64,000 nucleotides of DNA from an uncultured Oligoflexia bacterium (GCA_937120495.1 CAKZJW010000139.1:1-64000), one strand, 5' to 3'; positions 7,395 through 64,000 are shown, counted from the first letter of the stretch. The notes: generated by a model from the sequence alone, not told the origin. Numbers and translations are program-made.

Positions 7395-7407
7395 TAAACT
7401 AATAATT

Positions 7408-8539: not shown

Positions 8540-8570
8540 GGGGTGGTTTTTTTTAACCGCCCCTTTTTTT
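8540..8570 (+). terminator. Strong rho-independent terminator after the rimI-like gene
   Basis: A 9-bp stem GGGGTGGTT / AACCGCCCC (one G-T pair) has a six-T loop and is followed by seven T residues. It separates the regulator/acetyltransferase unit from the rimP-nusA operon. It ends 17 bases before the first possible rimP start, so rimP transcripts must either begin inside the gap or read through. Confidence 0.9.
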
Positions 8571-8587
8571 AATATGCGTTTTATATT

Positions 8588-9106
8588 GTGCAGGGATTTG
8601 TGGAATTAGTTAAAAACCGAACAGGTGTTGAAGAAAAATTTTATAAAATTGTCGAAAAAGTTGTTGATGAAAATCAATATCAACTTTACGACTTTGAATA
8701 TATTTCTGGATCTTCAACTCTTAGAGTTTTTATTATGGATAAAGAAACACAAACAGCAGTAATAGAAGATTGTATTAAAGTTGATAGAGCAATGAGTCCA
8801 TATTTCGAAGAAGAATGGGTTCCAAACGATGTTGTCTTAGAGGTTTCATCTCCAGGAATGTATAGAAGTTTAAAGACTCTTGCACATTTTGAATTGGCTT
8901 TAAATAAAAGAATTGCATGTAGTATAAGAGGGAAACTTGATGAGCAACTTGTTGAAGGAGCTCCCAAGTCAGTAAAGAAGGGTAATGCCTTTATTGGTAT
9001 TTTAAAAAATATAAACGAAGAAAATATTATTATTGATATAGATGGGTTTGAACTTGCTTTAACATTTGAACAGATGAAAAAAGCAAATTTAGAACCAGAG
9101 TTATAA
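8588..9106 (+). CDS. rimP: Ribosome maturation factor RimP
   Basis: This cytoplasmic factor for 30S subunit assembly has 172 residues if it starts at GTG 8588. The N-terminal domain shows the typical hydrophobic-D-F-E sequence (LYDFEYISGSSTLRVFI), then C-x-x-x-S/D-R-A-M and LEVSSPGMYRSL, the RimP signature (V-S-S-P-G-x-x-R-x-L). A C-terminal SH3-like domain follows. A second GTG at 8600 is also possible; neither has an ideal ribosome binding site. It is the first gene of the rimP-nusA-infB-rbfA-truB operon, 13 bases before nusA. Confidence 0.93.
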   Translation: MQGFVELVKNRTGVEEKFYKIVEKVVDENQYQLYDFEYISGSSTLRVFIMDKETQTAVIEDCIKVDRAMSPYFEEEWVPNDVVLEVSSPGMYRSLKTLAHFELALNKRIACSIRGKLDEQLVEGAPKSVKKGNAFIGILKNINEENIIIDIDGFELALTFEQMKKANLEPEL

Positions 9107-9119
9107 AGAGGAGAACAAG

Positions 9120-10541
9120 GTGAATTTTTCAGAATTAGGAAAAGTAATTGAGCAACTTGGAAAAGACCGTGGAATTCAAAAAGAAGTTGTTGTTGGTGCG
9201 ATAGAGCAAGCATTCATGGTTACAGCAAGAAAGAAATTTGGAATTCAAGGTGAGTACGAAGCTCGTTATAACCAAGAAGATGGTGAAGTTGAAATTTTTC
9301 AATATAAAAATGTAGTAGACGCAGTTAAAGATCCAATCGTAGAGATTGAGCATGTTGCTGCAAAAGAACTAGATGAAGAATGTGTAATTGGAGATCAATT
9401 AGGTATTAAAATTGAAGACCCACATTTTTCTAGAGTTGATATTCAAACAGCTAAACAGATTATTTTTCAAAAAGTTAGAGACGCTGAAAGAGAAATTCTT
9501 TTTGCTGAATTTAAGCATAGAGAAGGTGATCTTGTTACTGGTATCGTTAGACGCTACGAAAGAGGAAATGTAATTATTGACCTTGGAAAGGCTGACGCAG
9601 TCTTAAATAGAAGAGAAATAATTTACGGTGAGCAATTTAAACCAGGCGATAGAGTTCAAGGTTATTTATCAGAAGTTGTAATGACGAATAGAGGACCAGA
9701 AATTAGAGTTTCTAGAACTAGTCCAATGTTTCTTGTTAAACTTTTTGAAGCAGAGGTTCCTGAAATTCAAGATGGAACAATTGAAATTAAAGCTGCAGCT
9801 CGTGAGCCAGGACATAGAGCAAAGGTTGCTGTTTATACAGTTGATCGCGACATTGATCCAGTTGGAGCATGTGTTGGTATGAAAGGTTCAAGAGTTCAAA
9901 ATATTGTAAATGAACTTCAAGGTGAGAAAATCGATATTGTTAAGTGGCATGATGACGTAAGTTTCTTTGTTAAAAATGCACTTGCACCTTCGGAAATCAC
10001 TTCAATCAATATGAATCATGAAGATCATGTTTTAGATGTAATTGTTGAGGAAGATCAGTTGTCTCTTGCAATTGGTAGACGTGGACAAAATGTTCGTCTA
10101 GCAGCAATGCTTTCTGGTTGGAAAGTAAACATTATCTCTAAAGCGAAACTTCAAGAAAAAGTTAAGCTTGCTGTTGAGAACCTAGTTCAACTTGATGAAG
10201 TTTCTGAAACAGCTGCTCAAATGTTTGTTCAGATCGGAATCATGTCGATCATTGATCTTTCAGCAACATCTGGGGAAGAAATTTCTAGAGCTATAGAGTG
10301 TTCTGCTGAAGATGCTCAGAAGTTTATTGATGCCGCGACAGCAGCTATTGAAAATGATGATATTCAAAACGAGCCAGAAGAAGAGTCTGAAATAATTTCA
10401 GCTTCTGCTGTACCGTCTCAGAGAATGGGAATGATTAAAGATTCTCGCCCAGCTTCAGCTGAAGGTGAGGAAGATGATGATAAATTCTCTGATGCTGAGA
10501 AGAGGCTTAGAGAAGAGCTTGCAGCATTTAAATTAAAATAA
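9120..10541 (+). CDS. nusA: Transcription termination/antitermination protein NusA
   Basis: NusA binds RNA polymerase and nascent RNA and tunes pausing, termination and antitermination. The 473-residue protein has the N-terminal RNAP-binding domain (FSELGKVIEQLGKDRGI), an S1 domain around residues 130-200 (HREGDLVTGIVRRYERG) and two KH domains with VGMKGSRVQ and IGRRGQNVRLA. A C-terminal helix-hairpin-helix region of about 60 residues and an acidic tail (EGEEDDDKFSDAEKRL) follow. Start is GTG 9120 behind GAGGAG. It carries one C-terminal HhH-type unit rather than the two acidic repeats of enteric NusA. Confidence 0.97.
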   Translation: MNFSELGKVIEQLGKDRGIQKEVVVGAIEQAFMVTARKKFGIQGEYEARYNQEDGEVEIFQYKNVVDAVKDPIVEIEHVAAKELDEECVIGDQLGIKIEDPHFSRVDIQTAKQIIFQKVRDAEREILFAEFKHREGDLVTGIVRRYERGNVIIDLGKADAVLNRREIIYGEQFKPGDRVQGYLSEVVMTNRGPEIRVSRTSPMFLVKLFEAEVPEIQDGTIEIKAAAREPGHRAKVAVYTVDRDIDPVGACVGMKGSRVQNIVNELQGEKIDIVKWHDDVSFFVKNALAPSEITSINMNHEDHVLDVIVEEDQLSLAIGRRGQNVRLAAMLSGWKVNIISKAKLQEKVKLAVENLVQLDEVSETAAQMFVQIGIMSIIDLSATSGEEISRAIECSAEDAQKFIDAATAAIENDDIQNEPEEESEIISASAVPSQRMGMIKDSRPASAEGEEDDDKFSDAEKRLREELAAFKLK

Positions 10542-48325: not shown

Positions 48326-49675
48326 ATGATTGACGATTCAATCGGAATCAAAGGGATCTTTGATAATCCCAGTATAAAAAATTGGGAAGAGATCACCAAA
48401 AAAATGTTAAAGACTGATGACTTGGATAATAAGTTATTATTTAAATCAATTGAGCAAATTGATATTTACCCTCTACATACGGATAATAAATTTGTTGCTG
48501 AACTTGCAACTTTTCCAACTGATATTTCTATTTTTAATGATCAAAACCAGAAAAAAAATAGAGATGAATTTGATATCGATTTATGCAAAATTCATAATGC
48601 TGGGGCAAGCATATGCCAGGAGCTAGCATATCTGGTTCACTCTTTTATAAATGCCAAAAAAGAAACTCTAAATATATCTATAAGCCTTGATTCTCTTTAT
48701 TTTTCAAATATTGCAAAACTTCGAGCAGCTCGGTTCCTACTTGAAAGAATTAATGAAGAGTCTGAAGCCAGTACTAGTTTTAACTTCTACGCATTTAATT
48801 CCCTAAGAGAGCAAACTCTATTTGATCCATGGGTTAATATGCTTAGAAATGTTTCAAGTTCAATGTCAGCAATTATTGGGGGCGCAAACTTTATAAGCTC
48901 TTTTGGTTATGATGAACTTTTCTCTCATCTAACTTCTCAAGAAAAATCAAAGCTTGGTGAAAGACAAAGTTTAAATCACTTGAAAATCCTTCTTGAGGAG
49001 TCTCATCTATCAGATGTGAAAGATTACTCAAGGGGAAGCTATGCTATCGAAAATTTAACTTATCAATTTATTGATAAAGCTTGGAGCATGGCGAAGAAGA
49101 AGCCGCTTGATAATGAGGCTGACTTTTCAAAAGAGATTAAGGAAATATCATTAAAGAGATTTGAACTTATTAGAAAAGGTAAATCAACAATTACTGGGGT
49201 TAATAATTTTGCAAACCCTCAAGAGACGATTGAATCAATTTATAAATACAAAAACGAAGTTATTCAAAACACAAAAAGTGATGAGCTTTACCCTTTAAGA
49301 ACTGTGGCTTCAGAATTTGAAAACTTAAGATCTAAGTTTAATAGAGATAATAAAATTGCAGTAGTTCTATTTGGAGATGAATCGAAACTTTCAGCTCGAG
49401 CAAATTTTTGTCAGAATTATTTTGAGGTTCTAGGGGCTGAGGTTGTGCAGTTCTCAAGTATTGAAAAAGTCGATAAGGGGTCTCATATAGTTATCTGTTC
49501 AACAGATGATAAGTATGAGTCGCAGTTAAGTGATTTTATCGAATCAGCAAAAGATAAAAAAGCGAAGAGCATTTATGTCGCAGGTAAATATGAGCATAAA
49601 GATTCAAATGGGTGTCTGTATATGGGACAAAATATTTATGAAACACTTCACCGTTTTGTAGAGGAGAGTTGCTAA
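48326..49675 (+). CDS. mutA: Methylmalonyl-CoA mutase small subunit
   Basis: This is the non-catalytic partner of MutB. From ATG 48326 (GGAG six bases upstream) it is about 449 residues, shorter than the usual ~600. The TIM-barrel-like segment [11 protein letters not shown] corresponds to MRAARLLW of MutB, and [15 protein letters not shown] matches the substrate-domain helix. The C-terminal ~110 residues ([14 protein letters not shown], then a Rossmann-like repeat) are a degenerate cobalamin-domain-like fold without the DxHxxG motif, as expected for small subunits. The stop overlaps the MutB start. Confidence 0.9.
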
Positions 49676-51804
49676 TGAATATTTTTGAAATAGATATCTT
49701 TGCAAAAAAAGAGTTAACAAAAAAAACGCAAAAAACGTTTGCTACAGCAGAGGGGATTGAGCTTCACGAAAACTATAATAAAGAAGATATTAAAGATCTT
49801 GACCATGTAAACACATTGCCTGGAATAGCTCCTTTTATAAGAGGACCATATTCGACAATGTACCGAACTAAGCCTTGGACAATTAGGCAGTACGCAGGTT
49901 TCTCTACAGCAGAGGAGAGTAACGCCTTTTATAGAAGAAACTTGTCTAAGGGACAAAAAGGTTTATCTATTGCTTTTGACCTTGCTACCCACCGCGGTTA
50001 TGACTCGGATCATCCTCGCGTTGTAGGTGATGTCGGTATGGCCGGAGTTGCAATTGATTCAATCAAAGATATGAGAATTTTATTTGATAAGATTCCTCTT
50101 GATCAAATGAGTGTATCAATGACAATGAACGGAGCCGTTCTTCCAATCTTAGCTCTTTATATTGTAGCAGCAGAAGAGCAAGGCGTTTCTCAAGATAAGC
50201 TCGCAGGAACAATTCAAAATGATATATTAAAAGAATTTATGGTTAGAAATACTTATATCTATCCACCTGCTGCAAGCATGAAAATAATTGCAGATATCTT
50301 TGAATACACTTCAAAAAATATGCCTAAGTTTAACTCTATAAGTATCTCTGGCTATCATATGCAAGAAGCAGGAGCGACGGCAGACCTTGAACTTGCTTAT
50401 ACTTTAGCGGACGGACTGGAATATATTAAATCTGGAATAAGTGCAGGAATTGATATTGATAAATTTGCACCAAGACTTTCATTTTTCTGGGCCATTGGAA
50501 TGAACTATCCAATGGAGATTGCAAAAATGAGAGCCGCAAGACTTCTTTGGGCCAAAATTGTAAAGAAGTTTAATCCAAAACTAGAAAAATCAATGAGCCT
50601 TAGAACTCACTGTCAAACAAGTGGATGGAGCTTAACAGCTCAGGATGTTTACAATAATGTTACAAGAACATGTGTTGAAGCCATGGCCGCAGCTCATGGA
50701 CATACTCAATCACTGCATACAAATTCACTAGACGAAGCGCTAGCTCTTCCTACTGATTTCAGTGCAAGAATTGCAAGAAATACACAGCTCTTTATTCAAA
50801 ATGAAACTGATACATGTAAGCTAATTGATCCATGGGGAGGAAGTTTCTTTATAGAGAAGTTAACTCACGACCTAGCGGCGAAAGCTTGGGAACATATTCA
50901 AGAAGTTGAAGAGTATGGTGGAATGAGTAAAGCTATTGAGGCGGGCATTCCTAAAATGAAAATTGAAGAAGCCGCAGCAAAAACTCAAGCAAGAATTGAT
51001 TCAAAACAACAAATCATTATTGGTCTAAATAAAGATGCTCCTGACTTTGAAGAAGAGATCCCAGTTCTAAAGGTTGATAATACTAAAGTTCGTGAAGCTC
51101 AGCTTCAAAGACTAAAAGAGCTCAAAGAACAAAGAGATGAGTCAGAAACAAAGAAGTCTCTAGAGGCCCTAACAAAAGCTGCTAAAACTAATGAAGGGAA
51201 CTTATTAGACCTTGCAGTAAAAGCAGCAAGAGCAAGTGCAACTGTTGGTGAAATTAGTGATGCACTAGAGGCCGTTTATGGACGTCATCAAGCAACTATA
51301 AAATCTATCCAAGGTGTTTATAAGAATACACTTGGGCAGGAGAATCCGAACGTGGAAAAAATTAATGAGTTAATTTCTAAATTTGAAAAAGCCGAAGGAA
51401 GACGTCCTAGAATCTTAATTGCAAAAATGGGACAAGATGGTCACGATAGAGGACAAAAAGTTGTAGCAACTGCGTTTGCTGATCTGGGCTTTGATGTCGA
51501 TATTGGTCCATTATTTCAAACACCTGAAGAGACTGCAAAACAAGCAGTTGAAAATGATGTGCACTTTATTGCGGCAAGCTCACTAGCAGCAGGACACTTA
51601 ACTTTAATTCCAACTTTAAAGGCCGCACTTAAAAAATTAAATAGAGAAGATATAGCAATCGTTGTTGGTGGAGTTATTCCTCCTGATGACTATCAAATTC
51701 TATTTGATATGGGTGTAATGTCAGTATTTGGACCTGGAACTGTAATTAGTGAATCGGCAATAGAGTTAATTGAAAAGATCACAAAAGTTTTAGGCCATGA
51801 ATAA
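49675..51804 (+). CDS. mutB: Methylmalonyl-CoA mutase large, catalytic subunit
   Basis: This adenosylcobalamin enzyme interconverts methylmalonyl-CoA and succinyl-CoA, linking propionate and odd-chain or branched carbon to the TCA cycle. It has 709 residues from ATG 49675 (TAATG overlap with mutA). The substrate barrel contains [21 protein letters not shown] in pieces and the TQSLHTN region. The C-terminal cobalamin domain has D588-G-H590-D-R-G593, with His590 the cobalt ligand, then SSLAAGHL. Followed by meaB with an 8-base overlap. Confidence 0.97.
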
Positions 51805-52786
51805 AAGATCAACTCTTGATATTGATGATTTTGTTAAAGGTATTAAAAACCAAGATATAACAACTCTATCTCGAGCGATCACTCTTATTGAGAGCAAAAA
51901 TGAACAACATCAAACCCTTGCAAAAAAACTCCTAAAAGAAATTTTACCTTTGACGGGAAAATCAAAGAGAATTGGAATTTCAGGAACACCGGGAGTTGGT
52001 AAATCAACCTTTATCGAATCCTTTGGAAACTTTCTTATTGATCAAGGTTTGAAAGTGGCCGTTCTTGCAATTGATCCCACAAGCTATAAAAGTGGGGGCT
52101 CTATTCTTGGTGATAAAACAAGAATGAATAAACTCTCATCTAATCCGATGTCATTTATTAGACCAACACCTAGTGGAACAAACCTAGGTGGAGTTGCTTC
52201 AAAGACCAGAGAAAGCTTACTTCTTTGTGAGGCTGCTGGATTTGATATTGTAATAGTTGAAACAGTGGGAGTGGGGCAATCTGAAGTTACTGTTTCTAAG
52301 ATCGTAGATTTTTTCTTAGTATTAATGCAGCCAGGGGGAGGAGATGACCTTCAGGGGATTAAGAGAGGTATTTTAGAGCTTGCTGACCTTGTAGCAATTA
52401 ACAAAGCTGACGGAGAGGGACTTGGCATGGCCAAGCTTGCAAAGTCTGAATACGAGTCGGCATTAAATATATTAAGGCATAATGAGTACTGGGAACCTTC
52501 GGTAAAGCTTTGCTCTGGTTTAAAGGGCGAGGGTCTTGATGATATATACGCTACAATTAATGCTTATTATAAAAAAATGAATAAAGATGATCATTTAAAA
52601 AATAAAAGAAATGAACAACTTTTAAAATGGCTTCAAGAATTATTTTTTGAAAAAGTAAATCAACAGATTTCAAAAGATAAAGACTTTGAGAAAGGTTTAG
52701 AGGAAAATTATAAAGAAATCTTAGAGCATAAGATCTCTATTATTGAAGCAGCAGAGAAACTTTTTAATAAGGTTTTAAAAAAATGA
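51797..52786 (+). CDS. meaB: MeaB/ArgK G3E GTPase, methylmalonyl-CoA mutase chaperone
   Basis: MeaB protects and reloads cobalamin in the mutase. The 329-residue protein has Walker [10 protein letters not shown] (63-71), DPTS and [12 protein letters not shown], the ETVGVGQSE switch and the NKADGEG base-recognition motif, all typical of MeaB. The order mutA-mutB-meaB with overlapping ends is the standard operon. Its end overlaps the nth start by 4 bases. Confidence 0.97.
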
Positions 52787-53451
52787 CTGCTATTGATTAT
52801 ACAACTTCTAAAAAGAAAAGAGCCCAGTATATTTTAGAAGAACTAGAAAGAAGATATCCTAAGACTCCAGTTCCATTGGATCACACAAGTCCATATACAT
52901 TATTAATTGCAGTTCTTCTCTCGGCACAGTGTACAGATGAAAGAGTGAATAAAATAACTCCTGCCTTATTTGAAAAAGCAGATAATCCTTTTGATATGGT
53001 TAAGCTTTCTGTTGATACAATTAAAGCAATCATTAGACCTTGTGGTTTATCACCAAGAAAATCAAAAGCTATTTGGGAGTTGTCCCATATGATTATTAAT
53101 GAACACGGTGGATTAGTTCCTGAGAGTTTTGAAGAGCTTGAAAAGTTTCCTGGAGTAGGACATAAAACGGCAGCAGTTGTAATGAGTCAGTCATTCGGAC
53201 ATCCGGCTTTTCCTGTCGATACACATATTCACAGACTCGCTCAAAACTGGAAATTAACTAGTGGAAAGAATGTAGAACAAACTGAAAAAGACTTAAAAAG
53301 ATTATTCCCTGAAGAGTCATGGAATAAGCTTCACTTGCAAATTATCTTCTATGGAAGAGACCATTGTACTGCTAGAGGTTGTAGAGGAATTGTCTGTCCT
53401 ATATGTAGAACTCTCTATCCAAATCGCAAAAGAGCTATTGTTAAAAAATAA
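52783..53451 (+). CDS. nth: Endonuclease III with atypical Fe-S cysteine spacing
   Basis: This DNA glycosylase/AP lyase removes oxidised pyrimidines. The 222-residue protein has the helix-hairpin-helix FPGVGHKTA with catalytic Lys128, and catalytic Asp146 in FPVDTHI. LLSAQCTD near residue 45 is typical. The C-terminal cysteines are at 195, 200, 205 and 208, so the spacing is 4-4-2. The usual [4Fe-4S] pattern is C-x6-C-x2-C-x5-C. The cluster may be bound differently or lost. Translationally coupled to meaB, an unrelated partner. Confidence 0.93.
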   Translation: MTAIDYTTSKKKRAQYILEELERRYPKTPVPLDHTSPYTLLIAVLLSAQCTDERVNKITPALFEKADNPFDMVKLSVDTIKAIIRPCGLSPRKSKAIWELSHMIINEHGGLVPESFEELEKFPGVGHKTAAVVMSQSFGHPAFPVDTHIHRLAQNWKLTSGKNVEQTEKDLKRLFPEESWNKLHLQIIFYGRDHCTARGCRGIVCPICRTLYPNRKRAIVKK

Positions 53452-53638
53452 GTTATATTATCTTACATTTCAAATGAAAGAACTTATTAAATCTTGAATA
53501 AAGTCCAATCAAAATAGATACTTATCACTATGATGCAATCCGCATCTGTGCATACGTATTACCTTTCCCGGTTGTTTCATTTTTTTTAAGAGATTATCAT
53601 TTAAGTACTTGTACTTTCGAAATAAGGAGCTTAGTATC
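53452..53638. other. Intergenic region upstream of the endonuclease I gene
   Basis: This is a 187-base gap with no gene. It holds a less AT-rich patch around 53530-53575 with a small dyad (GATGC-AATCC-GCATC, 53531-53545) and ATACGTAT. There is no T-run after either. I see no tRNA or known riboswitch. Confidence 0.35.
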
Positions 53639-54466
53639 GTGCCCATGAATATATTAGTAAAAGTTATAGTTGTTATTAGTTTTTCTTTGTCCGCTTACTC
53701 TTATGATAATAAATCAGGGTTCTACAGCGAAGTTGATACCGAGTCAGGTTACAAACTTAAGACTGCATTAAAAAATATCGTTAAGCGAACTCATAGAAAT
53801 AGAGGTTATGGCGCTTTAATGAATGTTTACTTCAAAAGTGATGCTGATAAGACTTATGACAATGACGGATCAATTGTTGATATGTACTCAGAGAATCCAA
53901 CTTCATACGATAGTTACAAATTTGCTACAAAAGGTAAAAAATGTGGTTCTTATAAAAAAGAATCAGATTGTTTTAATAGAGAGCACCTATTTCCTCAAAG
54001 TATCTTTGGTAAAGCTGCTCCAATGAGATCTGACTTTTTCCATGTTTATCCAACTGATGGATATGTTAATGGTAGAAGATCAAACCATCCATTTGGAGAA
54101 GTTAATAAGGCTTCATGGACATCTAAAAATGGCTCTAAGCTTGGATCAAATACAACACAAGGTTATAGAGGAAAAGTTTTTGAACCAATAGACGAGTTCA
54201 AAGGTGATATCGCTAGAGCATTATTCTATTTTGCTACAAGGTATGAAGATAGAATTTCTTCTTGGTCGCATCCAATGCTTAATGGAACAAAAGATCAGGT
54301 TTATCAAACTTGGTTTGTTAAGCTTCTTCTTAAGTGGCATAAAATGGACCCAGTAAGTGCACACGAAATTAGAAGAAATGAAATTGGTTCTAAATACCAA
54401 GGAAATAGAAATCCATTTATCGACAATCCAGAGTGGATTGAAAGTATCTGGGGTCATGTAAAGTAA
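53639..54466 (+). CDS. Secreted endonuclease I family nuclease (EndA/Dns-like)
   Basis: This enzyme probably cuts DNA (and perhaps RNA) non-specifically in the periplasm or outside. GTG 53639 follows AAGGAG by nine bases and gives 275 residues; the in-frame ATG at 53645 is the alternative. The signal peptide is NILVKVIVVISFSLSAYS. The beta-beta-alpha metal motif is clear: NREHLFPQS with catalytic His, then SDFFHVYPTDGYVNGRRSN, where Asn/Arg residues hold the metal. FYFATRYED lies in the C-terminal half. A predator could use it on prey DNA, which is inference. Confidence 0.92.
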   Translation: MPMNILVKVIVVISFSLSAYSYDNKSGFYSEVDTESGYKLKTALKNIVKRTHRNRGYGALMNVYFKSDADKTYDNDGSIVDMYSENPTSYDSYKFATKGKKCGSYKKESDCFNREHLFPQSIFGKAAPMRSDFFHVYPTDGYVNGRRSNHPFGEVNKASWTSKNGSKLGSNTTQGYRGKVFEPIDEFKGDIARALFYFATRYEDRISSWSHPMLNGTKDQVYQTWFVKLLLKWHKMDPVSAHEIRRNEIGSKYQGNRNPFIDNPEWIESIWGHVK

Positions 54467-54521: not shown

Positions 54522-55850
54522 TTATTTTTGATTATGTTCTTCTAGTTTTATATTAAATCCATTTTTTGAAAATAGAGTTACTCTCGCATCCATTATTGGA
54601 TGATGGCCATCCAGAGTAAATTTGTAATTCTTAAGGATAGTTATAAGAATAATTCTCATCTCCATCATTGCAAATTGCATCCCGATACACACTCGTGGCC
54701 CCGAGCTAAATGGAAAAAAGTTATATCTTCCAAATTGAGCTGGTGTTTTTTCAAGCCATCTCTCTGGATAAAATGAATCGTGTTTTTCCCAAAGTGTGGA
54801 AGTTCTTTGAGTAAGAAAAGGAGAGATCAAAACTGTTTGATCGGCTTTTAGATGATAGCCACAAAGATCTGTTTCTTTTATATTTGCTCGCGTAAATGCC
54901 CACCCTGGAGGATAGAGACGTAAACTTTCATTAATGACAGCATCAATATATTTTAAATCTTTTAGATTCTCGTGATTAATCTCTTTTGAGTTTGAAAAGT
55001 TAATAGCTTCTTCAATGCAGAGATTTTGCCACTTTTTATTTTGAGATAAAAGATAGCTAAGCCATGAAAGAGTTTGAGAAGTTGTTTCGTATCCGGCAAA
55101 AATAAGTGTAAAGACATTATCATTAATGAAATTCTTATTTCTTCGCAAAAGCTCTGGAGCATTTTTAGTCGCTTTGATAAGAACATTTACTAGTGAGAGT
55201 GAATCTTCGTTTTCTTTTGCCAGATCTATGCCTTCTTTAATGATCTCTCTCATTACAAAGTGAGAATTTTCTAGTCTTTTCTGTCCTGGATTTAGAAACT
55301 TTGGCATATTTACGGGAAGATAATTTTTATTAGTCGCTGAATTTGAAATCTCAACAAGGGCTTTGTCCACTTTCTCAAATTGATGATAGGAGTTAAGACC
55401 AATAATACATTTTAAAATAATATCAAACGTTATCTTTGAAAAAAAGACATTCATATTTGAAAAGTTTGGATTTGAATCATAATTTTCTAGATTACTTTGA
55501 GTAAGGTTTTCAAAATGCACTAGAGATTCTTTTAAAAATGCAGACGAAAAAAGAGGCTGAAGCATTGAGCGCTGCTCTTTCCACGATTCAGCATTTGCTG
55601 AGGCTAAGCTATCTCCAAAAATATCTTTTGTATTATTTCTTTTTACAAAGTTATCAAATTCCGTTTGAAGAACTTGTTTGATCATCTCGGGAGAGTTGAT
55701 TACCACAAGATGTCTAGGCCCAACTTTAAGTTCAAATATCTCACCATGCTTTTGTCCAAGCTCAACAAGCATCTTTAAACGATCTTTTTGATAGGGAAGA
55801 AGATGTCCTATTAATGGGAGTCCGAGATCTTTTGGTATTGATTTACTCAT
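54522..55850 (-). CDS. Cytochrome P450
   Basis: This 442-residue soluble haem monooxygenase has the oxygen-binding helix I motif FAGYETT, the ExxR motif in NESLRLYP, and a P-E-R-W segment. The haem loop is FSSGPRVCIG with Cys388 as axial ligand. The CYP102/CYP4-like pattern suggests a fatty-acid or lipid substrate, which fits the surrounding genes; exact family is not assigned. There is no redox partner gene nearby. Its ATG overlaps the end of the DUF3419 gene by 8 bases, so the two are translated together. It is the last gene of the cluster. Confidence 0.94.
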   Translation of the reverse strand: MSKSIPKDLGLPLIGHLLPYQKDRLKMLVELGQKHGEIFELKVGPRHLVVINSPEMIKQVLQTEFDNFVKRNNTKDIFGDSLASANAESWKEQRSMLQPLFSSAFLKESLVHFENLTQSNLENYDSNPNFSNMNVFFSKITFDIILKCIIGLNSYHQFEKVDKALVEISNSATNKNYLPVNMPKFLNPGQKRLENSHFVMREIIKEGIDLAKENEDSLSLVNVLIKATKNAPELLRRNKNFINDNVFTLIFAGYETTSQTLSWLSYLLSQNKKWQNLCIEEAINFSNSKEINHENLKDLKYIDAVINESLRLYPPGWAFTRANIKETDLCGYHLKADQTVLISPFLTQRTSTLWEKHDSFYPERWLEKTPAQFGRYNFFPFSSGPRVCIGMQFAMMEMRIILITILKNYKFTLDGHHPIMDARVTLFSKNGFNIKLEEHNQK

Positions 55851-56940
55851 TGGTCAGAACCTCTATTCTATACATTTGAACCTTTTCTTCTCGAATTTCT
55901 TTTTCAAATGAATTTGTTATCTCTTTATAACCAGCTTTATTAGACTTTGGTATTCTTAAGTAATTTCTATTAACAACCAACGCTTCAGCAGATAAAGACG
56001 GCTTTATCTCTTGATAGAAATTTGTTTCAATTTCACCACTAAAGTAAGAGGGGACATCAGATAGTGATATATAATCTAAATCTTCGTATTTCTTGATAGC
56101 TTCAATTAGATCACAGTTCTCATAGGTTACCTTGCAACCTTTAAGTCGTTCTTTTATTTCTAAAAAATTTTCTTCTTTTGCTTCAATAAGATTTCCACTA
56201 TCCCAAACTATTTCTCCATAGAAACAAAGTTGTAGGAAAAAGCTATTTTTAATAAGACCATTATAGAAAAGGTTATTAAAAGCTTTTGAGTAATATTGAA
56301 GATAAGAGTCTTCAACATTTTTTTGTATAAAGTCACCCTTGTACAAAAGAGCATTAAACATACTTTTATTACCGATTATTGCGACAAGAAGTTTCCACCT
56401 AAAAGTAGGAAATTCATTCATCATATATTTTCGTTGTTCATCAAGATCATCAAAGCTAAACATTTTTGTACGAACATTTTTTCCCATGACTTTTGAGACG
56501 ATTTTACTAAAAAGAGAAAAGGTCTTTTCCCACTTTCCAATATATAAAACAGATTCCCATTTAAGCTCGGTAAATACGTTTTTAAAATAATTTGAGACTT
56601 CGCTCTCTAATTTCACGGATTCAAATAGGCTCTGCCTTTTATCTGTGAAGTCTTTTGCACTAAAAGGGGGATATCCCCAAAAGAGACAAAAATCTTCATA
56701 GCTAAATTCTTTATGTGTTTGCTCTCGAAGTTTAGCAAGATAAATTTGCTCAATCGAGAGATCAACACAAATAAGCTCTTCGGTTTGTTCCGCTATAAGA
56801 GGGAAGCAACGTGAGCCAGAGCCACAAACACTGAGAATTCTCTTTGGGTTTGATTTACTTGTTAAACGACACTCAAATTCAGTATCTTCATTTGCTAGAG
56901 TGTAGTTTAGTTTTGAGAAAAATTTATTCGGTTTACTCAT
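55843..56940 (-). CDS. DUF3419 protein, BtaA-like 3-amino-3-carboxypropyl transferase (probable)
   Basis: This 365-residue protein begins at ATG 56940 (MSKPNKFF); the longer frame to 57000 would run across the divergent promoter. The nucleotide-fold segment RILSVCGSGSRCFPLIAEQ followed by LICVDLSIEQIYLAKLRE matches the SAM-binding core of DUF3419/BtaA proteins. BtaA moves the aminocarboxypropyl group of SAM to diacylglycerol, the first step of betaine lipid synthesis. No BtaB methyltransferase is adjacent. It could act on a different lipid or alcohol. Followed by the P450 gene with overlap. Confidence 0.75.
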   Translation of the reverse strand: MSKPNKFFSKLNYTLANEDTEFECRLTSKSNPKRILSVCGSGSRCFPLIAEQTEELICVDLSIEQIYLAKLREQTHKEFSYEDFCLFWGYPPFSAKDFTDKRQSLFESVKLESEVSNYFKNVFTELKWESVLYIGKWEKTFSLFSKIVSKVMGKNVRTKMFSFDDLDEQRKYMMNEFPTFRWKLLVAIIGNKSMFNALLYKGDFIQKNVEDSYLQYYSKAFNNLFYNGLIKNSFFLQLCFYGEIVWDSGNLIEAKEENFLEIKERLKGCKVTYENCDLIEAIKKYEDLDYISLSDVPSYFSGEIETNFYQEIKPSLSAEALVVNRNYLRIPKSNKAGYKEITNSFEKEIREEKVQMYRIEVLTNE

Positions 56941-56962
56941 TAAGCTTGCCTCGAATTTTAAA

Positions 56963-56974
56963 AATAGTACTATT
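56963..56974. promoter_or_regulatory. 12-bp perfect palindrome in the divergent spacer
   Basis: AATAGTACTATT is self-complementary. It lies in the middle of the 39-base gap between the DUF3419 start (56940, minus) and the 217-aa gene start (56980, plus), a good position for an operator acting on both. Confidence 0.45.
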
Positions 56975-56979
56975 AAACA

Positions 56980-57633
56980 ATGAACTATATGACTCAGCAT
57001 TTACTCGAAGCTATTGAAATCAATAAGCATCGACTCAGCCTCTACAGTGATCTTACTGGTAAAAGATCCCGCAAAGTCTCTAGAGCACTTATATATAGTG
57101 AAAGCTTTAGTTTATTATCGGCATTTACTCTCGATAATATAGCTAAATTTTGGCAAAAACGTGGTGTTCCAGTGATGGTTCATGAGTTTATATCAATGGA
57201 GGAGATTCCTGAGTTTTCTAGCTCCTTTACTGATCAAATTGGAATCACTGAGCAGTTTCCTAAGTTAAATACTCTTTCTATTCAGAATGATATTATGAAA
57301 CTTTATCTAAAAAGTGAGTATAAGAAACTTGATATTTATATTGAAAAGATATTGATGGATATGCAGGAGTTTTCAAAGCATTATTGTATGATCAGACATA
57401 TCTTAGAGTCGGTTAGACGCTCTAATAATCTCGCTCAAATGCATATTGTAAAGGCAAAGGAACTTGGAGTATTAAGTCCAAAACTATTTTGTCATACTTT
57501 AATGCTTAGCCAGATTCTTATTATTCACAGTTCAAAGTTTCTCGATAAATGGGCCCATCCTATTCAAAAAGATGGTGTACCTATAATTTACCAAGATGTA
57601 CCTTATATTGCTCCTACTCCAATTTCTTATTAA
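56980..57633 (+). CDS. Hypothetical helical protein (217 aa) inside the lipid cluster
   Basis: I do not recognise this protein. It is soluble and predicted helical, with many His and Met (VMVHEFISMEEIPEF, KHYCMIRH), so a metal or haem-oxygenase-like helical fold is conceivable but unproven. It is the only plus-strand gene in the cluster, divergent from the DUF3419 gene and overlapping the 3' end of the GNAT gene by 20 bases. There is no Shine-Dalgarno before ATG 56980; ATG 56989 is the alternative. Confidence 0.6.
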   Translation: MNYMTQHLLEAIEINKHRLSLYSDLTGKRSRKVSRALIYSESFSLLSAFTLDNIAKFWQKRGVPVMVHEFISMEEIPEFSSSFTDQIGITEQFPKLNTLSIQNDIMKLYLKSEYKKLDIYIEKILMDMQEFSKHYCMIRHILESVRRSNNLAQMHIVKAKELGVLSPKLFCHTLMLSQILIIHSSKFLDKWAHPIQKDGVPIIYQDVPYIAPTPISY

Positions 57634-58627
57634 GTAATTTATAAAAATTTGTAGTTTGATTTTTTAATGAGAAAAATTTAATAAATCGACCGGAAGTATT
57701 ACCTTCTCGAATACAGGCTCCACAAAAGCGTCTAATTCCATCAGAATATCCATCAAAGAAGCTTTTAAAGATTAAAGCTGGAGCGAAATACATCTTTCTG
57801 GCGCTAAGGCTTAAAACGAGTGTTTTTAGGACTAAAACGTCATTGTCTAATATACTAAAGCAGTAACCTTGAAGCTTACCGTCTGGATCAAATAAAAGGT
57901 AGCTATACTTAGAGTCAACTTGTTTTGAAAAAGAGTAGAGAGTCTTTTGATATTGCTCTAGAGTTATATCCTCATAGAGGTCATTTCTAGAGAAACCAGA
58001 TTTATTAAGCTCATAAAAGCTCTCAAGGAGAGCGTCGTCTTTAAAGTCAATTCTCTCAAGTCTCCAGCCTTGCTTTTTTGCCATGAGAATTGATGCATGT
58101 CCAATGAGATGTGTTTTTAAATTCATTGGAGCAATAGTACTTAAAAACTTCTTGTAATCGCTATATCCAAGATCTTTTGTGTGCTGGTAATACTCAATAG
58201 GCGTGTGGGGTTCCCAAAAATAGTTTTTTTCAAAACCTTCAACTTTAAAACGATTACTAAACCATATATTGATATCAATAGGGCCATAAAGATTGCTTAA
58301 TTTATTTTCTTTTGACCACTTCTCTGAATGATCTAGTAAGGTCTTCAATATTTCTTTATTAGAAATGTCGTATTCAAGCATACCAAAAAAAGATGAATCC
58401 TCTCTGGCTTCTGTCTTATTGATTAGGATTCTTCCAGAGTCAATGCCATCAATACTTACAATAAATAACTCTTTTAATAATTTGGGAAAAAGAGCTAAAA
58501 AGCTTTTCTCATAAGAAGAGGGGGATAGCGTTCTCGTCTGATTGTGGGAGAGCTTCTTTGGAAGCGTTGTAAAGCGCTCAATAAAAAGATCTTTGTCTAC
58601 AGTGCTAGAGAAGCTTTCAATCTTCAT
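57614..58627 (-). CDS. GNAT-fold N-acyltransferase-like protein (YghO-like)
   Basis: This protein has 337 residues. The central region NLYGPIDINIWFSNRFKVEGF and a later PIEYYQHTKDLGY recall the YghO-type group: a G-P pair, a long substrate segment and P-x-Y-Y...L-G-[FY]. The C-terminal half looks like an acetyl-CoA N-acyltransferase fold without the strict acetyl-CoA loop. The substrate is unknown. The start (ATG 58627 or GTG 58630) is inside the end of the dikinase gene. The call is moderate. Confidence 0.6.
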   Translation of the reverse strand: MKIESFSSTVDKDLFIERFTTLPKKLSHNQTRTLSPSSYEKSFLALFPKLLKELFIVSIDGIDSGRILINKTEAREDSSFFGMLEYDISNKEILKTLLDHSEKWSKENKLSNLYGPIDINIWFSNRFKVEGFEKNYFWEPHTPIEYYQHTKDLGYSDYKKFLSTIAPMNLKTHLIGHASILMAKKQGWRLERIDFKDDALLESFYELNKSGFSRNDLYEDITLEQYQKTLYSFSKQVDSKYSYLLFDPDGKLQGYCFSILDNDVLVLKTLVLSLSARKMYFAPALIFKSFFDGYSDGIRRFCGACIREGNTSGRFIKFFSLKNQTTNFYKLLNKKLE

Positions 58628-61337
58628 CACAAACCCTTACTTCACCTGTTGTAGCATTTAATTCGACAGTATCACCGGTATTAAGTCTATCAATAAGCTC
58701 AGAGTCTATACCAACAATTGTCGGAACACCAAGCTCTCTTGCTATAACGGCAGAGTGAGAAAGGAGACTTCCTCTTTCTATAATCAATCCACCACAAAGT
58801 GGAAATAGAGGAACCCAACCGGGATCTGTTCTTTTTGTGACAAGAATTTCTCCGTTCATATTATTGGCTTCTTCAATTGTCTTTGCGACAACAACTTTTT
58901 TCTTTATTACACCAGGGCAACAAGAAGTTCCGTAGTATAAATTGGGATCGTCACTCTTTTTGAATTTATTTTTAAGTAGATCTCCACTCATGATAACTTG
59001 AGTGTTGCTTAGACTTACACCATTTGCACCGAAGGTAATAAATCGATCAGGTGGATCTTGTTCTTCAAAATATTGAGCGTATTCTTTTTTTCTGATCTTT
59101 GCGACTTCTTTGAAATTTAGGTATTCACTTTTTCCTTCAATAAAATCAAAAATCTCTTTTGCTGTTAAGTAAAAGGCATCTTCAGATTTTTCAATAATAT
59201 CCAAAGCCTCTAGGTGACTTGCGATTGTTTTAAAAATACGTCTTGAAATCCCAAAAGATTTACTACGCAAGAAACGAAGGTTTTCTCTATTTTTAACAAA
59301 AAAACGAGCTTTATTTAAAACCCAATAAAAGATAATCCTCTTTAAGCCTGAGAGTTGAGAGTTAACAATTGATTCTGCTTTTTCCTTTATCTCTACTTCA
59401 TTCTGATGCATTTTTTCAACACTATAACTTTTAGTCTTAATATAATTTCTTATATTATCGATTATAAAGCTTGGATTAGAATGAAGATCTTCTCCTTCAA
59501 GTTTTTGTTCATGATTACATCTAAAACCATATTTGATTAAATAGTCTTCCAGATCATTTTTAAATTTAAAAGGTAACTTATTTTCTTTTTTGTGAATTAA
59601 GATTTCTTCTGTTGATGTATTTGCAAAATATTCTTTAAGTGTTGCATCTTGATCATACTCAGAAGCAATCTTCATCAAAGTAAGAGTTGGAAGGGTAGAG
59701 TCAACCTCTCCTTGACCACAAAGAAGGTCATTTTGAAGATGGGCAGAGTCACCATCCGTTTTTATCCACTTCTCAACGAGACTTTTAAGTGTACCAAAAA
59801 AGACCATAACGAGAAAGTCATTTATGATAGGAGCATTCCAATTATAAGAAACCGTGTCATTCCATCTTTCAAAATAGGCTTTTAATTCTCTTAAGCTTTT
59901 CTTTGAAAAATCTATTGAGAAGTACTCATTATAAATCGTATCAAACATTAAACGAAAGTCTTTGGTGATTGTTTTTATATAAAGAAAGTTTTTAAAAAAT
60001 CCACCAAATACAAATAGCTTTCTAAAAAATGTGTATTTTGGAGATTTATCAACAAAATCAAGAAGTCCTTGTTGCTCTTGGCTCAACTCCTCTTGAACTC
60101 CCATCATCGTCTCCATGAAACCTTTGTTTGAGGAAGAACCAGGGAAAAGAAATAAAAGCTTATACCAGTTTATTAAATTATAATAAACTCGACCTCTAAT
60201 ATGGCCAAGCATATTTACAAACGCTTCATCGTTGTCAGTAATAATATTTTCTGGAACACCAATAAGGCGACAAGTTTGACGATAAACGATTGCATAGGCT
60301 TCTTTAGTCAGAGAGAAGGTTAGTGGAAGGGTAATTCCAGCAAAAGATTCAACAATATTTGAGTTGTCCCACAGAGTGGCTTCATCTCCATTAATCTTTG
60401 AATCGTAAAAAGATAGAGGAGGACAATTTGTTATTGGCCTCATTTGTACAAGATAGAGTTCATGGTCTTCAATGGCCCATTCTAGATCTAGAGGACAACC
60501 TTGTTTTTTTTCAAGCTCTATTGCAAGACTAGCTAACTTTTGAATATTTTTTTCATCTATACTGAGTTTTGTCTGTCTTTCATCTTCAAGTTCTTTTTTT
60601 AAGATTCCAGATTGATCATTTTTAATAAAGTAAGATTCTTTTTGTGCAATATCGGCTTCAAAGCTATTTTTAAGACGGCTAAAAAGGATTTTGTCTGAAT
60701 CTAGCTCCCCACTAACAAGACCTTCACATTGCCCATACACTGATTCAATAATAATATTGTCTCTATCTATGAAATCAATTGGGTTTCTTGTGAATAAAAC
60801 ACCTGATGAGTCTGAGTTTATCATCTTTTGGACAATGACACCCATTTGAATATTAGAGCTGAGTCCATTTTTTAAACGATAACTTAAACATCTTTCTGAA
60901 AATGCAGAAGCCCAGCAATTTATAATTGATCTTTCAATTTGAGCATCTGTTTTTTGAAAAAGAAAACTAGAGAACATTCCCGCAAAAGAATGATCAGCAG
61001 AGTCTTCATCAAGGCCAGAGGAGCGAACAGCAACATTGAGGTTTGATAGACCATTTTCTTTTAAAAAGCTCGAGAGTTTTTCTTTTTGCTCGTTTGAAAA
61101 GGAAATATTTTCAAATACAGATTGTATTCTTTTCGCATCATCACTTGGAGACTCAGTTAATTTTAATTTTGTCCCCAAATTGTTTTGTGAGATAAAATCT
61201 TGAAAAAAATCATCTGCTATTACTAGAAATTGAGGAATAGGGCAGCCCTGATCGAGAAGCTTTTTGAGGTTTTTTGCTTTACCTCCACCTTGTTGTTCAA
61301 TTTCTAAAAAACTGTCATTTTGAGTAAGTATTTTCAC
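58617..61337 (-). CDS. PEP-synthase/rifampicin-phosphotransferase-like dikinase
   Basis: The protein has 906 residues. The N-terminal ATP-grasp domain of PEP synthase (residues about 1-310) has GGGKAKNLKKLL, VAVRSSGLDEDSADHSFAG, VIVQKMINSDSSGVLFTRNP and LYLVQMRPIT. A middle domain of about 450 residues follows. The C-terminal swivel domain carries the phospho-His: H861 in GSLLSHSAVIARELGVP. The PEP/pyruvate TIM barrel of true PEP synthase is absent. This is the architecture of rifampicin phosphotransferases, which pass the beta-phosphate of ATP to an alcohol. The substrate here is unknown. GTG start overlaps the fusion-gene stop (GTGA). Confidence 0.88.
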   Translation of the reverse strand: MKILTQNDSFLEIEQQGGGKAKNLKKLLDQGCPIPQFLVIADDFFQDFISQNNLGTKLKLTESPSDDAKRIQSVFENISFSNEQKEKLSSFLKENGLSNLNVAVRSSGLDEDSADHSFAGMFSSFLFQKTDAQIERSIINCWASAFSERCLSYRLKNGLSSNIQMGVIVQKMINSDSSGVLFTRNPIDFIDRDNIIIESVYGQCEGLVSGELDSDKILFSRLKNSFEADIAQKESYFIKNDQSGILKKELEDERQTKLSIDEKNIQKLASLAIELEKKQGCPLDLEWAIEDHELYLVQMRPITNCPPLSFYDSKINGDEATLWDNSNIVESFAGITLPLTFSLTKEAYAIVYRQTCRLIGVPENIITDNDEAFVNMLGHIRGRVYYNLINWYKLLFLFPGSSSNKGFMETMMGVQEELSQEQQGLLDFVDKSPKYTFFRKLFVFGGFFKNFLYIKTITKDFRLMFDTIYNEYFSIDFSKKSLRELKAYFERWNDTVSYNWNAPIINDFLVMVFFGTLKSLVEKWIKTDGDSAHLQNDLLCGQGEVDSTLPTLTLMKIASEYDQDATLKEYFANTSTEEILIHKKENKLPFKFKNDLEDYLIKYGFRCNHEQKLEGEDLHSNPSFIIDNIRNYIKTKSYSVEKMHQNEVEIKEKAESIVNSQLSGLKRIIFYWVLNKARFFVKNRENLRFLRSKSFGISRRIFKTIASHLEALDIIEKSEDAFYLTAKEIFDFIEGKSEYLNFKEVAKIRKKEYAQYFEEQDPPDRFITFGANGVSLSNTQVIMSGDLLKNKFKKSDDPNLYYGTSCCPGVIKKKVVVAKTIEEANNMNGEILVTKRTDPGWVPLFPLCGGLIIERGSLLSHSAVIARELGVPTIVGIDSELIDRLNTGDTVELNATTGEVRVCDED

Positions 61338-63598
61338 TTAACAAGCTCCGATAGTGGAATAAGCCAAAGGCCGTAAATAATATTAAGAGTAATGATTCCT
61401 TCAAACACTTTGTATTTGTTTTCATTTTTATAAATATAAAGTTGTCCGAGTGTTAGAAGAATATAAGGGATAAGAACCCATAGACATTTGTCTAACGCAA
61501 TTCCTGCTATAACACCCATAATTAATAGTAAGTTTATAGCAATATGTGTTTTTAGCTTTTTGTAATGAACGAGATAAGTTCCAAGTATTGGGTCTGCTTC
61601 TGGGTTCATTTTTCTTCCAACTTCAAAAGAAAAGAACGTACTTAGTATCAGAATTGAAAAATATATTGCTCGAGAAGAAAAAGCATCCTCTGGGCTTATT
61701 AGAGCAATCATAAATAAAGCTGCCGGTATAATAATAATTTGATGGCTAATTGCATAGATAAAAGGAAACTTTGCAAGATTTGGTATGAAAAACTCTTTAT
61801 ACATTAAAAATAGCCATAGGGTTGCTAGTAGAAACATACCACCTGCGATTGGATTAAAAATCGTAAAGCTTAAAATACTGATGAGAACAAGCGCAGCAAA
61901 GAAAGATGAGATTAGTTTTTTTACAGTTGTGACTGATATTAATCCTCTTGGAAGGGGTCTATCTGGATGTGCTATCTTATCCTTTTCATAATCTTTATAC
62001 TCATCCATAAATCTAAGTTCCATAATAAATATAATAAATGAAACGCAAATAAATATTTGTCCAACTAGAGATGCCTGCTTTTCAATTAAAAACTGTGTAC
62101 TCATTAATAGACCAATTGCTAAGATTATATTAGGGACTAGGGGGGTACGTTCATTAATAAACTTTATTATATCTTTCATGTAAACACCTCTTTCTATGCT
62201 TTGTTCTCTATCGATTCTGGCACGATGCCTTGGATCTCGAATGATTTTTCGATTTATTATGTTTTTTATACTTGGAAATTTATTTTGTATTTCTTCTTTA
62301 TGCTCAAGAACGCTTTCACCATAAAGAGTAAGTACACCTTCTTCATTTTTAATAAAAGAGTGACTCGACTGAGTGATATTATAAACTCCTTGCTCGGTTT
62401 GAAATTCTTCTCCACTTTGAAAGTCTCGTCCTTGATAGAGTAGCCCCTCAGCTGTTGTGTGAATCTTATCTCCCATATTATGCCAAGTGACTCCGTCTAT
62501 GAGCTCTTTATTCTTTTTATTTGCGATTGGGTCATTCTCATACATTGGAGAGACGTGCATACCACTAACCCAGAGTATCTCTTCTTTTGTTTTAAGAGTG
62601 ATTTCTTTTATCGGTTCCCCAAGATAGAGAGTCTGAAAATAATTGTTTTTTTCACTAAGCTTGACTGCAGTATCTAGATCAATCATTGAAACTGGTTCTG
62701 CTTCAGTCGATCCATAAAGTAGTGTCATTTTTGTATTGGGCCACTTATTTAACGCTTTTTTATAAAGCTTATTATCACCTAAAGCTCCACCGACAAATAA
62801 AAAATCGAGATCTATATTATGGGTGTTTTTTATCAGCCTCTCTAGAAAATTAGGTCCACAAGCTGAAGTATCTACTTTAAATTCTTCTGGAAGCTTGTCT
62901 AAGCTTTTTAAAATCTTCTTATCCCAAGAAGAGGGGATAATCATGCTTCCTTTTCCAAGTGTAATATTTAAAAGTACAACATTTGTGAATACTGTTAAGT
63001 CTAGTTTGTTTGCTTTATCATACGAGACATACTTGCTAAGGATTTCAGCTTGGTCTACTAAATACTGATGCTTTCTATGAACCCCTTTAGGCTCTCCTGT
63101 CGTACCTGTCGTAAAGGTAAGTATTGCGTGAAAATCTTCTTCAACATCTAAAACTTCTAAGGAATCATTTTTATTGAGTTTAATACTCTCAAGAGAGCTT
63201 GAAGAAAATTTATGTTTTATACTTCTAAATTCCTTCGATTTAAGAAGAACTAGCTTTCCCAGAGTGCCTGTAATAACTCCTTTTGGAGGAGTTCGTCTCA
63301 TAAGAGCATTTATATTATTCGCTTTCATCCATGGCTCAATAATCATGAGCTTTATACCAAGCCCTAAAGCACCTAGAATATATGCATAGAGATTCGCTGA
63401 TGGTTGTTCAAATAATAGAAGAATATCTCCAGTTTTATATCCCTTTGATAATAAGTGTTTTTGTGCCTTTATCGAATTATTATGAAGATCTTTAAAACTA
63501 GTTGCTTTATCTAAAGAGGAGAGGCCTTTGTAAAAAATTATTGCAGGCTTATCACTTTGACAGTCTTTATTATTTAAATAACGATTTAAACAATTCAT
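61334..63598 (-). CDS. Fusion: OleC-like acyl-adenylating domain + UbiA-like membrane domain
   Basis: This is a single 754-residue frame. Residues about 1-470 are an AMP-forming ligase: P-loop TFTTGTTGEPKG (161-172), YGSTEAEPVS (295-304), GDKIH (376-380) and DPRHRARIDRE (455-465). The last resembles the DPRHNAKI-type A10 of OleC and related acyl ligases. Residues about 485-754 have eight or so membrane helices. Between helices, D532-x3-D536-x3-D540 followed by HPDRPLPRGLIS matches the first Asp-rich motif of UbiA prenyltransferases, with Asp in place of the usual Asn. The second motif is weak (FEVGRKMNPEAD). I know of no such described fusion. It overlaps the dikinase gene by 4 bases. Confidence 0.85.
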   Translation of the reverse strand: MNCLNRYLNNKDCQSDKPAIIFYKGLSSLDKATSFKDLHNNSIKAQKHLLSKGYKTGDILLLFEQPSANLYAYILGALGLGIKLMIIEPWMKANNINALMRRTPPKGVITGTLGKLVLLKSKEFRSIKHKFSSSSLESIKLNKNDSLEVLDVEEDFHAILTFTTGTTGEPKGVHRKHQYLVDQAEILSKYVSYDKANKLDLTVFTNVVLLNITLGKGSMIIPSSWDKKILKSLDKLPEEFKVDTSACGPNFLERLIKNTHNIDLDFLFVGGALGDNKLYKKALNKWPNTKMTLLYGSTEAEPVSMIDLDTAVKLSEKNNYFQTLYLGEPIKEITLKTKEEILWVSGMHVSPMYENDPIANKKNKELIDGVTWHNMGDKIHTTAEGLLYQGRDFQSGEEFQTEQGVYNITQSSHSFIKNEEGVLTLYGESVLEHKEEIQNKFPSIKNIINRKIIRDPRHRARIDREQSIERGVYMKDIIKFINERTPLVPNIILAIGLLMSTQFLIEKQASLVGQIFICVSFIIFIMELRFMDEYKDYEKDKIAHPDRPLPRGLISVTTVKKLISSFFAALVLISILSFTIFNPIAGGMFLLATLWLFLMYKEFFIPNLAKFPFIYAISHQIIIIPAALFMIALISPEDAFSSRAIYFSILILSTFFSFEVGRKMNPEADPILGTYLVHYKKLKTHIAINLLLIMGVIAGIALDKCLWVLIPYILLTLGQLYIYKNENKYKVFEGIITLNIIYGLWLIPLSELVK

Positions 63599-63599
63599 A

Positions 63600-64000
63600 T
63601 TAAGCTCTTTTCTTTAATGCATGTTCTTTGCAAAGCTCAATTTCTTCATCTGTTATTTCTGACTTGTGACCCATAATTGATGAAAGCTTTAACCCATGCT
63701 TTCGAGCGAGCTCATCAATTTTATAAACGTTTTTATAGCTTATTTCACGAGACATACTGAAGGATTCAAAGAGATTTTCCATCGCAAGAAGTGCCGTCTC
63801 AGCTAAACAGGCATAAACTGTTTTCCCCTGAAGCCCAATATCGATATTAAATTCCACATCACCGGGAAGTTCAACCTCTCCACTTGCTATAACTAAAACA
63901 TCAGGACGTTTTCTTGCGTCCTCTTGTGAAATATCAAAGGGTCTTGATACATCACAAATTACACAACCTGGTTTTACTTTTTCAATATCAAGAATCTTCT
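63600..64000 (-). CDS. Acyl-ACP reductase (AAR)-like dehydrogenase, 5' end outside window
   Basis: The frame is open at the right edge, and about 132 C-terminal residues are visible. KPGCVICDVSRPFDI followed by VLVIASGEVELPGD fits the end of a Rossmann NAD(P) domain. The segment VYACLAETALLAMENLF, then ARKHGLKLS, matches the C-terminus of cyanobacterial-type long-chain acyl-ACP reductase (LFACFAE...LE...L; KHGFRPLL). Those enzymes make fatty aldehydes from acyl-ACP. The stop is one base before the fusion gene start, so the two are co-transcribed. Confidence 0.65.
   Translation of the reverse strand, partial: KILDIEKVKPGCVICDVSRPFDISQEDARKRPDVLVIASGEVELPGDVEFNIDIGLQGKTVYACLAETALLAMENLFESFSMSREISYKNVYKIDELARKHGLKLSSIMGHKSEITDEEIELCKEHALKKRA

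Follow-up and report, generated by a model that had tools for sequence, protein, structure and literature searches.

A conserved gene cluster of Bdellovibrionota, probably for an unusual amino-acid-headed envelope lipid

Introduction

The gene cluster described here shares with the BtaA/BtaB pathway of betaine lipid (DGTS) synthesis an enzyme of the DUF3419/BtaA family, for which SAM is expected to be the 3-amino-3-carboxypropyl donor. It differs in lacking BtaB, in the divergence of its DUF3419 subfamily and in the addition of a ligase, a UbiA-like protein and a dikinase, and its amine is apparently acylated or formylated rather than methylated. The prodigiosin enzymes PigE and PigC are the best-described homologues of the acyl-ACP-reductase-like (AAR) domain and the full-length dikinase of the cluster, respectively, although the AAR studied here has no aminotransferase domain, no pyrrole pathway accompanies it and the scores fall far under the family cut-offs. 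Rifampicin phosphotransferase (RPH) has the same ATP-grasp and phospho-histidine architecture as the dikinase and provides its nearest solved structures, whereas the cluster dikinase scores below the family cut-off, has a different middle (substrate) region and lies in a lipid-type setting. The Ole pathway (OleC, OleBC and OleD) has in common with the cluster an OleC-like ligase, a hydrolase–ligase fusion in relatives and an extended SDR. However, the cluster lacks OleA, the hydrolase is a serine hydrolase, the SDR is nearer to thioester reductases and the A10 lysine is replaced by arginine in the ligase studied here. Archaeal DGGGP synthase shares the first Asp motif and the RPLP.G motif of a lipid-diphosphate transferase with the UbiA-like protein, but the relationship is remote and the second Asp motif is replaced. 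Finally, the catalytic cysteine and the NAD-binding region of cyanobacterial AAR (6jzu) align with those of the cluster AAR, which is 677 aa long as compared to about 340, and carries an extra N-terminal Rossmann-like domain. Membership in the betaine-lipid, Ole, RPH and prodigiosin systems was considered and rejected, as the cluster departs from each of them in at least one tested feature.

Many Bdellovibrionota are predators of other bacteria, and odd membrane lipids are said to have been described in the phylum by Muller et al. in 2011, a study that PMC7529429 cites. To our knowledge, UbiA, a PEP-synthase-like dikinase and DUF3419 are not known together in one pathway. Our searches of the open-access literature turned up no account of these genes as a set; the one hit that joins UbiA and Bacteriovorax, PMC12419801, covers a different neighbourhood.

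Here, we analysed the first 64,000 bases of an 82.5-kb contig from an uncultured Oligoflexia bacterium, hereafter called the window. Its end carries the greater part of a biosynthetic cluster, probably for an unusual amino-acid-headed envelope lipid.

Results

From low to high coordinates, the cluster comprises the genes for a P450, a DUF3419 protein, a 217-aa protein on the plus strand, a GNAT-like protein, a dikinase, an OleC-like/UbiA fusion, the AAR, an SDR and a lipid kinase. The sequence-only reading had proposed six minus-strand reading frames in the window, and all six are real and lie where it placed them; profile searches bore out five of its family assignments, and the GNAT assignment needed the relatives and the predicted fold. 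It had also taken the six genes for a single continuous set of overlapping or nearly touching frames, which does not hold: a plus-strand gene at 56980–57633 intervenes, and the gap between the DUF3419 and GNAT genes is 673 bp if DUF3419 starts at 56940. Since this conserved gene, which is convergent to the genes from kinase to GNAT and divergent from DUF3419–P450, parts the DUF3419 and P450 genes from the remainder, we read the cluster as two putative minus-strand transcription units, kinase-to-GNAT and DUF3419–P450. The spacings from GNAT to kinase, in order, are −14, −4, +1, −4 and −4 bp (negative values are overlaps), and the P450 and DUF3419 genes overlap by 8 bp. As the same reading had advised, we looked beyond 64000 for the rest of the operon. 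The cluster extends up to contig position 67641, with the minus-strand genes of an extended SDR (65630–66673; NAD_binding_4), upstream of AAR, and of a YegS-like lipid kinase (66670–67641), upstream of the SDR.

The plus-strand gene, which had been overlooked, encodes a conserved hypothetical protein of 217 aa without a Pfam match above the cut-off. Its homologues occupy the same position in L025, L029 and L030, and lie upstream of the lipid kinase in L056–L061; the start of a relative in L031 (18380–19120) resembles a signal peptide. Beside the cluster, at 49669–54466, lie the genes for methylmalonyl-CoA mutase, a MeaB-like GTPase and endonuclease III. The latter two recur in L153, directly before a dikinase–UbiA pair, possibly marking a common insertion site.

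The C-terminal part of the AAR gene lies in the window (63600–64000, minus strand), and the full gene extends to contig position 65633. The full 677-aa frame matches AcACP_reductase with 65 bits and, better, PigE with 156 bits, its top NCBIfam match; it does not reach the cut-off of TIGR04058 (65.2 bits as against 449.7). Cys609 (about 63807–63809) is invariant and aligns with the active cysteine of 6jzu and 4ppm. The Rossmann/NAD-binding motifs likewise have counterparts in PigE (4ppm) and cyanobacterial AAR (6jzu), so that both the active-site cysteine and the NAD-binding fold of the AAR/PigE type are present. In PigE, the N-domain acts as a thioester reductase, and the cysteine corresponding to Cys609 is Cys296/Cys294 (PMC8341465). 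The extra N-terminal domain (residues 1–310, L002:4705–5634) is conserved in all long AARs. Its predicted structure (322 aa, pLDDT 90) gave only weak matches to Rossmann-type folds, including that of AAR itself (TM 0.44), and the domain is perhaps a degenerate duplicate. The nearest solved relative of the SDR is the MxaA thioester reductase. In three Pseudomonadales loci (Ketobacter; L101, L106 and L107), the long two-domain AAR occurs alone, with the rest of the cluster absent, flanked by genes that by eye resemble polyphosphate kinase (708 aa) and exopolyphosphatase (503 aa).

The dikinase (58617–61337, minus strand; 906 aa; PF01326, PF00391) consists of an ATP-grasp domain (PPDK_N, 3.6e-67) and a phospho-His domain (PEP-utilizers, 7.8e-19; ERGSLLSHSA, His861), and the ATP-grasp and His residues are invariant. 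Its nearest solved relatives are the RPH structures 5fbs and 5hv1. Despite these shared domains, identity with rifampicin phosphotransferase was rejected on the family cut-off (260.5 bits as against 999). Among the subfamily models, the PEP-synthase-named one scores 796 bits, PigC 331 (cut-off 1300) and RedH 306, and the PigC and RedH matches span the full length.

These full-length matches, together with the top rank of PigE for the AAR and the thioester reductase activity of the PigE N-domain, would suit a natural product that is secreted, prodigiosin-like or otherwise amphiphilic, and not a structural lipid. The AAR would furnish its aldehyde, like PigE, and the dikinase would join two pieces in the manner of PigC/RedH. 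Aminotransferase–AAR fusions accompany UbiA and the dikinase in L156 and L168, and a PKS megasynthase adjoins the pair in Ketobacter (L171). We nevertheless consider such a product unlikely, as the dikinase matches the PEP-synthase-named subfamily much better than PigC, the window's cluster has no pyrrole-forming partners, and retention across the phylum next to Lol/LolA genes better fits an envelope component.

Next to the dikinase, a single 754-aa frame joins AMP-binding (1.5e-24) and UbiA domains. The UbiA-like membrane transferase domain forms the C-terminal half (61334–62203, minus strand) and scores 31.5 bits against PF01040, just below the Pfam cut-off of 34.2 bits; its nearest solved relative is archaeal DGGGP synthase, at a remote E of 2.6e-4. 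The first Asp motif is kept (DEYKDYEKD...RPLPRG) and the second is replaced by FEVGRK, and both are invariant across the relatives. The domain thus has only one of the two Asp-rich motifs of a UbiA prenyltransferase, the other being FE..RK, and the donor may accordingly not be a prenyl diphosphate.

The OleC-like AMP-forming ligase domain forms the N-terminal half (62219–63598, minus strand; PF00501 87 bits, PRK09274 140 bits). It scores 47 and 41 bits against the OleC models, with cut-offs of 850–900, and lacks the alpha/beta hydrolase found in other clades. Its A10 lysine is replaced by arginine (DPRHRARIDR). Among the ligases with a readable motif, lysine occurs in clusters with a formyltransferase and arginine in those with a GNAT, the exceptions being L132 (formyltransferase-type; the motif match is probably spurious) and L063 (GNAT-type). 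The arginine suggests that the ligase step of the window and of the GNAT-type clusters may not be ordinary adenylation. A variant of the Ole-type long-chain olefin or beta-lactone pathway could be suspected from this ligase, which belongs to the PRK09274/OleC group and is fused to a hydrolase in formyltransferase-type clusters, giving an outwardly OleBC-like protein. Such a variant is extremely improbable: no OleA thiolase is among the recurrent neighbours, the SDR scores 45.5 bits against OleD (cut-off 580), and the hydrolase of the relatives has the serine motif G[YF]SxG, whereas OleB hydrolase uses aspartate. Moreover, the window's ligase is without any hydrolase.

The GNAT-like protein (57614–58630, minus strand; 338 aa) has no significant Pfam match of its own. 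We assigned it as a tandem-GNAT-fold acyltransferase from its homologue L036, which matches Acetyltransf_1 at 2.4e-8, and from an AF2 model (pLDDT 92) with a tandem GNAT fold, for which the top PDB match is 2wpw (E 2.9e-14). Among 47 dikinase loci, 24 have a GNAT and 20 a formyltransferase, and none has both. In a larger set of loci, the alpha/beta hydrolase is fused or adjacent in 30/30 formyltransferase loci and in 0/25 GNAT loci, counts that are not statistically independent because the swap traces to only two independent switches on the dikinase tree. Amines are the usual targets of formyltransferases and GNATs alike, from which we infer that the two most simply share as substrate the amine that DUF3419 would install.

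The DUF3419 protein (55843–56940, minus strand) is a relative of BtaA and resembles SAM:3-amino-3-carboxypropyl transferases; it matches PF11899 with 96.5 bits (E 2.5e-27), above the cut-off of 28.2. The frame is open up to 57000, but the alignment shows Met21 to be invariant, which places the probable start at 56940. Searching by sequence gave no solved structure related to the cluster DUF3419. The cluster proteins score 46–225 bits and canonical BtaA 380–393 under the same model, a divergence suggesting that the acceptor may differ or that the reaction may have changed. Membership of the BtaA family is what speaks for canonical DGTS synthesis with unrelated neighbours, which we regard as highly improbable. 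Three genomes of the phylum (L162–L164; Pfam checked in L162) carry canonical BtaA separately, with a methyltransferase next to it, whereas the cluster-type protein has no methyltransferase partner and a far lower score, and the co-occurrence counts given below indicate that its neighbours are not unrelated.

The cytochrome P450 (54522–55850, minus strand; 442 aa; PF00067, E 7.4e-77) has both the haem Cys motif FSSGPRVCIG and ESLR. It occurs in 13 of the 24 GNAT-type loci and in none of the 20 formyltransferase-type loci, so its placing among the core members is not supported, and we regard it as an accessory.

We then compared neighbourhoods among 20 related loci, 80 named AAR loci and further families. 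The named relatives, which are Bacteriovoracaceae/Halobacteriovoraceae MAGs, were retrieved with the AAR alignment; the fusion protein alone, as a query against named genomes, gave no matches. From these relatives, the host of the window most likely belongs to the same group of Bdellovibrionota. One and the same set, made up of kinase–SDR–AAR(–DUF3419) and ligase–UbiA–dikinase with a GNAT or a formyltransferase, recurs in Bacteriovoracaceae, Bdellovibrio MAGs, Oligoflexia and Silvanigrella-type genomes, often with rearranged order and strand. AAR, SDR and lipid kinase adjoin each other in most loci. Most of the remaining genes that recur nearby look by eye like housekeeping genes, and the cluster block therefore stands out.

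Among 290 Bdellovibrionota genomes, AAR is present in 90 and DUF3419 in 109: 88 have both, 2 only AAR, 21 only DUF3419 and 179 neither (Fisher p 5e-51, uncorrected for phylogeny). The two genes lie within 15 kb of each other in all 79 genomes with both on the same contig, and on different contigs in 9 more. Cluster-type UbiA, defined by a threshold of at least 126 bits chosen after the scores were seen, is present in 95 of the 290 genomes; 94 have it together with cluster-type DUF3419, and 7 have one of the two alone (1 and 6). By these statistics, the neighbourhood exceeds chance, and the genes behave as one unit in inheritance, loss and arrangement. The only other genome of the window's genus in the sample is without AAR, DUF3419 and UbiA, which suggests that the block is gained or lost as a whole.

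The composition varies among the relatives. Several complete clusters (L030, L159 and L160) have neither AAR nor SDR. In L156, an aminotransferase–AAR fusion (6749–9451) stands beside UbiA, dikinase and GNAT genes and DUF3419 was not found in the genome, so an amine source appears to be kept. PigE-like aminotransferase–AAR proteins of about 900–960 aa (L168:1032–3917 and L156:6749–9451) adjoin UbiA and dikinase genes, and L168 has two dikinases, with a CarS-like CDP-archaeol synthase nearby (L150).

Beyond Bdellovibrionota, 4 of the 143 Gammaproteobacteria genomes that were sampled, a small number, have UbiA. UbiA, dikinase, DUF3419, GNAT and ligase genes lie together in G400, where the first three overlap by 4 and 23 bp. 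G381 encodes a 1184-aa dikinase–DUF3419 fusion (L148:6118–9672), with UbiA adjacent, the ligase and GNAT near and HMG-CoA reductase next; the dikinase part is 32% identical to that of the window over 811 columns, and the DUF3419 part scores 207.9 bits. For the GC-rich L149, the gene order was taken from the profile search. The presence of the five genes together in two Gammaproteobacteria marks the ligase, UbiA, dikinase, GNAT and DUF3419 as the core, with AAR, SDR and kinase as additions typical of Bdellovibrionota and the P450 as an accessory. Since AAR and SDR are missing from this core as well as from several complete clusters, the predicted fatty aldehyde branch is not essential. UbiA and dikinase occur in other settings in G310 and G349, the latter including a CDP-archaeol-synthase-like CarS protein. 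In eight Gammaproteobacteria/Desulfobacterales genomes carrying only AAR, DUF3419 was not found in a search run without a positive control, which suggests that AAR alone is no marker of the cluster.

The CarS-like protein of G349, the DGGGP synthase relationship of UbiA and the adjacency of AAR, SDR and lipid kinase in most loci are consistent with an ether-linked glycerolipid, in which a fatty alcohol from AAR and SDR would be phosphorylated by the kinase and the dikinase, and joined by UbiA to glycerol or a similar alcohol, in the way of DGGGP synthase in archaea. The remoteness of the UbiA match, its replaced second Asp motif (FE..RK) and the missing AAR and SDR in the Gammaproteobacterial five-gene core make this a doubtful reading. 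In addition, known UbiA chemistry makes poor use of saturated alkyl diphosphates as donors.

The opposite-strand gene between the two units and the variable order and strand might instead suggest an accidental neighbourhood of at least two unrelated gene sets. This is very unlikely given the proximity in 79/79 same-contig genomes, the UbiA–DUF3419 association in 94/101, the Gammaproteobacterial cores and the dikinase–DUF3419 fusion. The sequence-only reading had proposed an undescribed, functionally coupled cluster, and a search for scattered homologues, across the 290 genomes and the two Gammaproteobacteria, did not overturn this claim, which is well supported.

Discussion

What does the cluster make? 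It is a lipid biosynthesis locus in our reading, and we put the probability at about 0.45, slightly below even odds, that it serves the dedicated biosynthesis and export of an unusual amino-acid-headed envelope lipid, with steps deduced from family chemistry.

Lipid precursor: AAR and SDR would convert an acyl thioester into a fatty aldehyde or alcohol, and the lipid kinase would phosphorylate a lipid alcohol.

Head group: The DUF3419 enzyme would transfer the 3-amino-3-carboxypropyl group from SAM to a lipid hydroxyl, which would yield a homoserine-type lipid with a carboxylate and a free amine. Capping of the amine would fall to the tandem GNAT, or to the formyltransferase in other clades, and the OleC-like ligase would activate or otherwise handle the carboxylate. 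A BtaB-type methyltransferase was not among the recurrent cluster genes. One more lipid-phosphate group may be attached or made ready by the dikinase, through its phospho-histidine domain, and the UbiA-like enzyme of the membrane.

Export: Lol-type or MMPL transporters would carry the product to the outer membrane. Of 96 loci, 28, or only about 3 in 10, have export genes adjoining the cluster (Lol parts in 25, MMPL in 3), and a LolA_like protein and an FtsX/MacB permease were confirmed by Pfam; it is from this adjacency that we infer the outer-membrane destination. The unusual membrane lipid that had been suggested from the window is thus a reasonable proposal, which the Lol/MMPL neighbours now back, and the product itself remains a prediction.

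There is a real chance that the product represents a new lipid class. More specifically, and more tentatively, the Bdellovibrionota and scattered Gammaproteobacteria might possess an outer-membrane lipid class new to bacteria, with a SAM-derived aminocarboxypropyl head that is N-acylated or N-formylated and modified by UbiA and the dikinase. The dikinase–DUF3419 fusion makes the link between those two families directly testable, and the cluster, co-inherited across the phylum, offers a concrete genetic handle on a missing component of the envelope.
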